This document shows positions 60,956 to 62,287 of a stretch of 64,000 bases of DNA, one piece after another (the first letter of the stretch is position 1; each line of letters begins with the position of its first letter). Below the pieces are notes generated by a model, which worked only from the letters and a program-made list of their open reading frames with translations, searched no databases and was not told the origin of the DNA. The position numbers and the translations under genes were made by a program. The stretch comes from an uncultured Gammaproteobacteria bacterium (GTDB taxonomy: Bacteria; Pseudomonadota; Gammaproteobacteria; GCA-001735895), in the NCBI GenBank assembly GCA_947260025.1, contig CAMYON010000013.1, positions 84,806 through 148,805 on the forward strand. Direction: 5' to 3'.

Positions 60956-62185
60956 TTACTGGTTTTGCACCATGACCCTGGTCGACAAGGCGTGAGAAAT
61001 TTCGGCATAGGTCTTGGTCACATCGTCGCCCGGGCTAAAATAAATCAGCTCATCACACATGGCTTCAAGACGCTGATGACTGGCACTCCTGGCTTCCTCG
61101 TCGGATTCAGAGCTGACACCGTAAATGTACTTGCCGTGGGCGCGGGCGTAGCCGCACTCGAAGCCGGTCCAGCCTTCTGATTCCACCCCTTCGAGAACAA
61201 CGATAACGATATCCGCACGGTCGAGCTCGGATTCGTAGCATGCCTGAATTTCGCGCCGCGTCATGGATTTCAGATCGATGTCGAGATCGATCTGCGGGAT
61301 CAGGATTTCCATATAGGGATTATCTTCGGTCAGGGTTTCGCGCAACTGCAGGTTCCACACACGCGCGGCCTGGGAGCTGTTATAGGCCGCCAGGTAAGCC
61401 CTGATTCCGTGATGAATGCCCATGTTGACATTGTGCGTAATCGACTCTGGCTCGAGGTTGGTCTCTTTTTGCGCCGCGACCTGCAGCGCGTCCTTGAGCG
61501 CAATCTCGCCGGTCATCAGGGCGTGGCTGATAATCGCACCATTGATATTAGGCAGGTAACGCAGGCGCGCGATATCGTCCAGCGTCCTCACGGTACCGCT
61601 GGAATAGACCGGAATCGAGACATCGTGGCTGAGCTGTTCGGTTAACGCCAGGGCTTCCTCGAAGCCCGATGCGTCAAGGGTTTCGGTACCCTTGTGGATT
61701 ACGCCTGCAATACCGGTCATCTGCAGGTCGCGAATCAGGTCCTGCGGCATGAACGCGGTTTGCGTCTTCCAGCCGTCGATCATAACGTATCCGCCGCGCG
61801 TGGCCAGGTGTACGATAATTCCGCCGGGATGCCGGCTGGCAGCCTCTACCACCAGCGGTGAATCGGTGATGGCGACGGTTCCCAGCACTACGCGCGCCGC
61901 GCCGGCTTCGAACCAGTCGTTAATCTGCGCCATGGTTCTGATGCCACCTGCAACCTGGATCGGAATGTCGGTATCGTTGATGATATCGCGTATCAATGCC
62001 TCGTTATTGTCGCGCTTTGACCTGGCTGCATCGATATCGACGATCTGCAACATTTGCGCACCGTCAGCGACAAAATCACGGACCGCATCGCGCGGTTCGA
62101 TTGCATGAACTATGTCGTCACCTTCAATTGCGGCTCGTGTTATTACCTTGCCGTCCTGCAACTGGATTTCGGGAATAATCAGCAT
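60956..62185 (-). CDS. HisA-like TIM-barrel fused to nucleoside 2-deoxyribosyltransferase-like domain
   Basis: N-terminal MLIIPEIQLQDGKV...VAGGIRTMAQINDWFEAGAARVVLGTVAI (HisA/HisF-like); C-terminal AYLAAYNSSQAARVW...LDRADIVIVVLEGVESEGWTGFECGYARAHGKYIYGV (NDT-like). Confidence 0.8.
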   Translation of the reverse strand: MLIIPEIQLQDGKVITRAAIEGDDIVHAIEPRDAVRDFVADGAQMLQIVDIDAARSKRDNNEALIRDIINDTDIPIQVAGGIRTMAQINDWFEAGAARVVLGTVAITDSPLVVEAASRHPGGIIVHLATRGGYVMIDGWKTQTAFMPQDLIRDLQMTGIAGVIHKGTETLDASGFEEALALTEQLSHDVSIPVYSSGTVRTLDDIARLRYLPNINGAIISHALMTGEIALKDALQVAAQKETNLEPESITHNVNMGIHHGIRAYLAAYNSSQAARVWNLQLRETLTEDNPYMEILIPQIDLDIDLKSMTRREIQACYESELDRADIVIVVLEGVESEGWTGFECGYARAHGKYIYGVSSESDEEARSASHQRLEAMCDELIYFSPGDDVTKTYAEISHALSTRVMVQNQ

Positions 62186-62287
62186 GGCGGTTACCTGGCA
62201 GTTTAATCGAGAGAGGGACGCCATTGTAACGCCTGATTGTTGCCTGGCGAACACCCTTTATTGCTCCAAAATGATATATTCGTGCCT

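Follow-up and report, generated by a model that had tools for sequence, protein, structure and literature searches.

A gene on the minus strand at 60956–62185 of the window (the whole 64,000-nucleotide stretch of DNA from an uncultured gammaproteobacterium that was analysed) encodes a HisA-like barrel joined to a domain of the nucleoside 2-deoxyribosyltransferase (NDT) superfamily. The catalytic residues of HisA have been lost from the barrel, one phosphate site has been kept, and the attached domain has relatives among enzymes that remove or exchange the bases of nucleosides, so the fusion probably handles a ribonucleotide-like compound. Most likely it works on a phosphoribosyl compound as an N-glycosidase or transglycosylase, the barrel serving as the partner that binds the ligand. 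The preferred reading, held tentatively and a little short of even confidence, is that of a neofunctionalised HisA paralogue in which the NDT-like half would be catalytic and the barrel would supply, position or sense its N-ribosyl substrate. The next most likely reading gives the barrel a new chemistry, and a non-catalytic sensor follows.

Gene and domain layout

The gene, its domains and its candidate promoter element are placed as follows.

60956–62185, minus strand: HisA-like/NDT-like fusion gene, 409 aa, stop codon included (open frame; relatives)
61466–62185, minus strand: HisA-like (beta/alpha)8 barrel, residues 1–240 (PF00977; AlphaFold2 model; Foldseek)
61409–61465, minus strand: fusion linker, residues 241–259 (low model confidence, sequence conserved)
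60971–61408, minus strand: NDT-like domain, residues 260–405 (PF05014 and PF15891 above cut-off; Foldseek)
62223–62228, minus strand: candidate -10 element TACAAT (TACAAT/TATAAT-like in relatives)

The ATG at 62185 is common to the relatives, and an alternative GTG upstream would add 23 residues. A TACAAT/TATAAT-like element about 40 bases 5' of the ATG is also kept in relatives; given this conserved element and the conserved ATG, the fusion gene probably has its own promoter. An Rfam search upstream of the gene gave no riboswitch or other RNA match.

The first-pass annotation, made from the sequence by eye, had read the N-terminal half as a HisA/HisF-type barrel and the C-terminal half as NDT-like, and both assignments were borne out. 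PF00977 (His_biosynth) covers residues 3–228 (1.6e-42, 146 bits against a Pfam gathering score of 23.6), PF05014 (Nuc_deoxyrib_tr) covers residues 264–364 (3.2e-9, 37.4 bits against 28.8), and PDB sequence matches were found for both halves. An AlphaFold2 model built on a 27-row alignment has a barrel (residues 1–240), a low-confidence linker (242–259) and an alpha/beta domain (pLDDT 80, pTM 0.58); the linker has pLDDT < 50, and the relative placement of the two domains is uncertain. In Foldseek the whole model matched S. enterica HisA (5a5w, 7e-18), with PriA also among the matches, and a separate C-terminal model matched NDT 7o62 first (8e-8), followed by BcmB, CtNDT, MilB, BlsM and DNPH1. 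With the NCBIfam equivalog TIGR00007 the protein scored 146.7 bits, below the cut-off of 228.95. Judged from these profiles and its residues, it is not a HisA member and fits the definition of an NDT only in part.

Residues of the barrel pocket and the NDT-like site

The barrel was compared with HisA and PriA at the following places.

62162–62164, minus strand: Gln8 for the HisA catalytic Asp (S. enterica D7, PriA Asp11) (alignment)
61934–61951, minus strand: residues 79–84, AGGIRT, phosphate-2 site G80, G81 and R83 kept (alignment; PMC7591586)
61877–61882, minus strand: residues 102–103, GT, phosphate-2 site G102 kept (alignment; PMC7591586)
61796–61810, minus strand: residues 126–130, HLATR, strand-5 Asp (S. 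enterica D129) is Ala128 (alignment)
61676–61696, minus strand: residues 164–170, HKGTETL; HisA 'TD' is K165-G166 and catalytic D176 is L170 (alignment)
61592–61600, minus strand: residues 196–198, SGT replacing SGG, strand 7 motif (alignment)
61520–61528, minus strand: residues 220–222, SHA replacing GRA, strand 8 motif (alignment)

Canonical HisA (27 sequences) shows essentially no variation at D7, D129, the Thr, D176, SGG and GRA, and Asp11 and Asp175 are catalytic in M. tuberculosis PriA (PMC13055916). None of the genus fusions has Asp at either the D7 or the D176 column (PriA Asp11/Asp175). The three substitutions noticed in the first pass hold: Asp to Gln at residue 8, Asp to Ala at residue 128 (a column with Ala, or Thr, Val or Ser, in the genus fusions), and the TD..RDG loop turned into HKGTETL (K165, G166, L170). 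The GGIR motif is kept, as had been noted, and so is G102-T103. Positions 80, 81, 83 and 102 of HisA bind the phosphate of ProFAR's non-reacting ribose (PMC7591586). R83 and W139 are kept in the barrel; the corresponding Arg and a loop-5 Trp matter for ProFAR binding (PMC5404923). By alignment, then, the phosphate-2 residues of the two HisA phosphate sites are retained and the strand 7/8 motifs are changed.

The barrel had also been described as degenerate, and this part of the earlier description gives way: the replaced positions are conserved, purifying selection is strong, and one phosphate half-site is intact. Across the 22 genus fusions, T141-Q142-T143, H164 and T198 are present in all 22, H126, K165 (else Arg) and H221 in 21, and Q8 in 20 of 21 (His in one). 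Median pairwise dN/dS among the genus fusions is 0.078 in the barrel, 0.078 in the NDT-like half and 0.092 in the linker, values that are approximate since dS is saturated in many pairs; close pairs give 0.04–0.10. With the replacement residues conserved across 22 relatives and dN/dS of about 0.08 in both halves, the pocket reads as re-tooled, not decaying.

The same conservation also speaks for a bifunctional enzyme, in which the barrel would perform new chemistry with Q8, H126, H164, K165 and H221 and the NDT-like half would do the preceding or following step. The replacement residues are under purifying selection and conserved in nearly all fusions, and HisA/PriA paralogues have been recruited to other pathways, for example AdeK (PMC13055916) and SubTrpF (PMC5404923). 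However, the acids for HisA-type acid/base chemistry were lost together, the motifs on the phosphate-1 side went from SGG and GRA to SGT and SHA, and a partner pathway is not visible. A bifunctional enzyme is a real but unlikely alternative.

The loss can be followed through the relatives. Among the stand-alone HisA-like proteins D7 is replaced by Glu (15) or Gln (1) and SGG is gone; D129 and T-D persist. One distant fusion (L083) has E8, D129, T-D and GRA, but Phe at D176. Because this fusion still has E8, D129 and T-D, the HisA catalytic residues were lost in steps while one phosphate site stayed.

Three residues of the NDT-like half were placed by profile alignment, with L. leichmannii NDT numbering, in which D72 is the catalytic Asp, D92 the 5'-OH contact and E98 the nucleophile Glu.

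61394–61396, minus strand: Tyr264, in the column of the active-site Tyr that NDTs conserve, invariant
61226–61228, minus strand: Glu320, in the column of the NDT catalytic Asp (L. leichmannii D72)
61157–61159, minus strand: Glu343, in the column of the NDT nucleophile Glu (L. leichmannii E98)

The first-pass annotation had taken two NDT motifs to be kept, one of them with the catalytic Glu. The nucleophile, E343, is indeed retained; as a refinement, the column of the catalytic Asp has Glu320 in the fusion and Ala in one relative (L027), with a 3-residue alignment gap nearby. Y264 and E343 are invariant in the 22 genus fusions and in L083, and on this alignment with an active-site Tyr and a nucleophile Glu a retaining N-glycosidase or transferase chemistry is possible. 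The 5'-OH/phosphate-contact column (NDT D92, DNPH1 S98) has E337 in the fusion and Glu, Thr, Lys or Asp among the relatives. The Ser six residues before the Glu, a phosphate contact and a feature of DNPH1, MilB and BlsM, is absent, with E337 in its place; Ser98 of DNPH1 binds phosphate (PMC10603095). Since this position varies, the NDT-like half matches neither of the two signatures of substrate specificity, that of nucleoside enzymes or that of nucleotide enzymes.

The alterations in both halves suit a non-catalytic sensor or regulator, in which each half would bind a nucleotide-like ligand (e.g. ZMP/AICAR or a related ribotide) and the protein would regulate partners. Catalysis has been lost from the barrel, the NDT acid and 5' contact are altered, and the gene stands alone next to housekeeping genes. 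Against this, neither Glu343 nor Tyr264 varies, the distant fusion included, although a pure binding domain would have no need of them, and no DNA-binding or output domain was found in the fusion protein. A sensor is improbable, more so than a second active site in the barrel.

Compared with HisA (TIGR00007/PF00977) and PriA, the barrel shares the (beta/alpha)8 fold, about 30–38% identity, the phosphate-2 site G80 G81 R83 G102 and the GW motif of loop 5, but the fusion is without the catalytic Asp pair and the strand-5 Asp, has changed SGG and GRA motifs, scores below the TIGR00007 cut-off, carries a C-terminal NDT domain and falls in a separate clade. NDTs (PF05014; PDB 7o62, 1f8x and CtNDT 8pqs) share the fold, the active-site Tyr and the nucleophile Glu in G-x-E-x-G, and differ in having Asp for Glu320 and Gly for Trp339 in the loop before the Glu; the fusion also has a variable 5'-OH contact position and a fused barrel. 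MilB, BlsM, BcmB and DNPH1, nucleoside 5'-monophosphate N-glycosidases, are alike in superfamily, in their expected retaining Glu mechanism and as Foldseek matches, but their phosphate-contact Ser (DNPH1 S98, MilB S97) is absent from the fusion. AdeK and SubTrpF are HisA-family proteins with altered function, AdeK being an extra copy beside the housekeeping one; unlike the fusion they are single-domain, with both catalytic Asp marked as conserved (PMC13055916, PMC5404923). AdeK differs further in its location in a biosynthetic gene cluster, and it occurs in nucleoside antibiotic clusters (PMC13055916).

Both halves thus come from known superfamilies, and re-purposed HisA paralogues are known. 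The literature searched yielded no account of a HisA-NDT fusion and none of a HisA paralogue whose residues are changed in this way. Neither the combination of HisA, paralog and nucleoside 2-deoxyribosyltransferase nor that of nucleoside 2-deoxyribosyltransferase, fusion and TIM barrel returned a paper, in a search for which primed spelling may hide some papers and which covers few subscription journals.

Distribution, neighbours and origin

The first pass had seen no other his gene, which holds for the window; elsewhere in the genome, contig C35 carries canonical hisA and hisF as a pair, and the proposed check for a separate hisA thus gave a positive answer. A trpF gene is on contig C39 (PF00697, 8.9e-42). 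With hisA, hisF and trpF elsewhere in the genome, the fusion is neither the housekeeping HisA nor TrpF, and an identity as housekeeping HisA or TrpF/PriA was rejected on this ground and on the loss of the Asp pair. A diverged housekeeping HisA or HisA/TrpF-type isomerase would agree with the identity to canonical HisA and the retained R83 and W139, but every HisA catalytic residue is gone and the barrel lies in its own clade; this explanation is very improbable. The two findings that the first-pass annotation had named as fatal to its proposal, conserved catalytic Asp residues in a genome with no other hisA and a C-terminal half unlike NDT profiles, were both contradicted.

The fusion is present in 24 of the 31 genomes of the window's genus, and some of those that lack it are incomplete. 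It is absent from all 10 other genomes of the same family (the whole order in the set searched). Sampling with the fusion profile, confined to Pseudomonadota (369 Gammaproteobacteria and 399 Pseudomonadota), gave one further fusion, L083 in genome G253 of a distant gammaproteobacterium, with 43% identity. The NDT-half profile at 1e-6 matched 4 of 339 genomes of the class, making this half rare. The same in-frame fusion in 24 genus genomes and one distant genome is far beyond chance. Matches of the kind 'HisA with long frame' in G133 and G253 were canonical hisA genes in his operons and were set aside. Among plasmid and phage relatives, no match spanned the NDT half, and the barrel matches resemble ordinary hisA.

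An unbroken frame occurs in 22 genomes or contigs, one of them a scaffold of the Olavius algarvensis Gamma 3 endosymbiont (L036). The gene is divided between two frames in a pair of metagenome-assembled genomes (G018:C61, L028; G023:C95, L021), where an assembly error or a real frameshift may be responsible. These broken frames would fit an assembly artefact or a decaying pseudogene, but the intact copies, the low dN/dS and a chromosomal place by fructose-bisphosphate aldolase common to most members make this explanation negligible.

The adjoining aldolase gene is class I and on the other strand. Named by eye, the upstream neighbours are mnmA, hflD and a low-molecular-weight phosphatase, and those on the other strand are aldolase, GST, Slt and FumC. 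No conserved co-directional functional partner was found, downstream included, and the gene appears to be monocistronic. Because it stands alone, its neighbours give no functional clue: the search for the same fusion and its surroundings found the fusion itself, but the neighbours favour none of salvage, repair and housecleaning, roles suggested in the first pass. PADLOC gave no meaningful match for the fusion and no defence function. The contig with L083 (the fusion gene at L117:2099-3397, minus strand) carries, by eye, genes like those for benzoyl-CoA reductase subunits, aldehyde ferredoxin oxidoreductase and CoA ligases.

In a tree of 68 barrels the genus fusions group with L083 (support 100/98), and these fusions group with alphaproteobacterial stand-alone proteins and one gammaproteobacterial stand-alone (100/99), apart from canonical HisA. 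The barrel thus places in a supported HisA-paralogue clade shared with stand-alone alphaproteobacterial proteins, a clade for which no exact rooting is claimed, as the program warns of long branches. The stand-alones also share the changed SGG and an LDDIxRLxYxPN motif after strand 7, and have Glu for the strand-1 Asp; they differ in lacking the NDT domain and in keeping the strand-5 Asp, the strand-6 T-D and mostly D176 and GRA.

The stand-alone paralogue (L094-L097, L108, L121-L130) is patchy, occurs in addition to the normal hisA and has Glu, once Gln, for the catalytic Asp. The alphaproteobacterial family concerned contains Rhodobacterales-type genomes, by sequence resemblance, and about 17 of its 58 genomes with a match have a second, HisA-like copy. 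By eye, these genes adjoin housekeeping genes (fabD, fabG, acpP, yebC) and have no common partner.

A second HisA fusion occurs in the genus, a barrel with a class I SAM methyltransferase of about 504 aa (L049-L057; L055:4614-6125, plus strand). Its D7 is His, both phosphate motifs are largely kept, and the gene is directly downstream of dnaK-dnaJ-dapB. By sequence match it is in 14 genus genomes; the genome of the window gave no sign of it. A profile built on it had no hits in 274 genomes of the class, a weak result, with few or no carriers among them. A co-occurrence link between the two fusions was rejected, as it is not strict.

Proposed function and significance

Under the preferred reading, the C-terminal domain would do the catalysis, in the manner of NDT and DNPH1/MilB enzymes. 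Glu343 would attack C1' of a ribosyl or deoxyribosyl substrate while Glu320 helps the base leave, and the glycosyl-enzyme (glycosyl-Glu343) would be resolved by water, as in a hydrolase, or by another base, as in a transferase. The barrel would have given up the Amadori isomerisation of HisA and TrpF. It may bind a phosphoribosyl-containing ligand through the phosphate-2 half-site (G80, G81, R83, G102), with Q8, H126, H164, K165, T198 and H221 as a re-tooled pocket, and so supply, position or sense the N-ribosyl substrate; in HisA this half-site takes up the phosphate of ProFAR's N-glycosidic ribose, the one that does not react. On this reading the ligand of the barrel would be a ribotide, and the two halves would share a substrate. 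Several points count against this: the NDT acid is Glu in place of Asp, and Ala in one relative; the 5'-OH/phosphate contact is variable; no operon partner or co-occurring gene pointing to a substrate was found; and the domain placement in the model is uncertain.

A narrower proposal, doubtful at present, is a new enzyme acting by cleavage or exchange on the N-glycosidic bond of an imidazole ribotide-like compound (ProFAR-like, ZMP/AICAR-like or a specialised ribotide), with the HisA half-site holding the nucleotide phosphate and the NDT active site attacking C1'. If this were true, the marine genus would have a link from histidine or purine intermediates to salvage or to a specialised pathway.

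HisA is a textbook model of barrel enzymes gaining new functions. The fusion offers a natural case, in which a HisA paralogue lost its catalytic acids stepwise, from Asp to Glu (stand-alones and the distant fusion) to Gln, and in which the barrel retained one phosphate half-site and remained under strong selection once it was joined to a domain that acts on N-glycosidic bonds. The two-domain protein, together with the evolutionary intermediate L083, provides a test of how an isomerase barrel becomes another enzyme's partner, and it may reveal a new ribotide metabolite.
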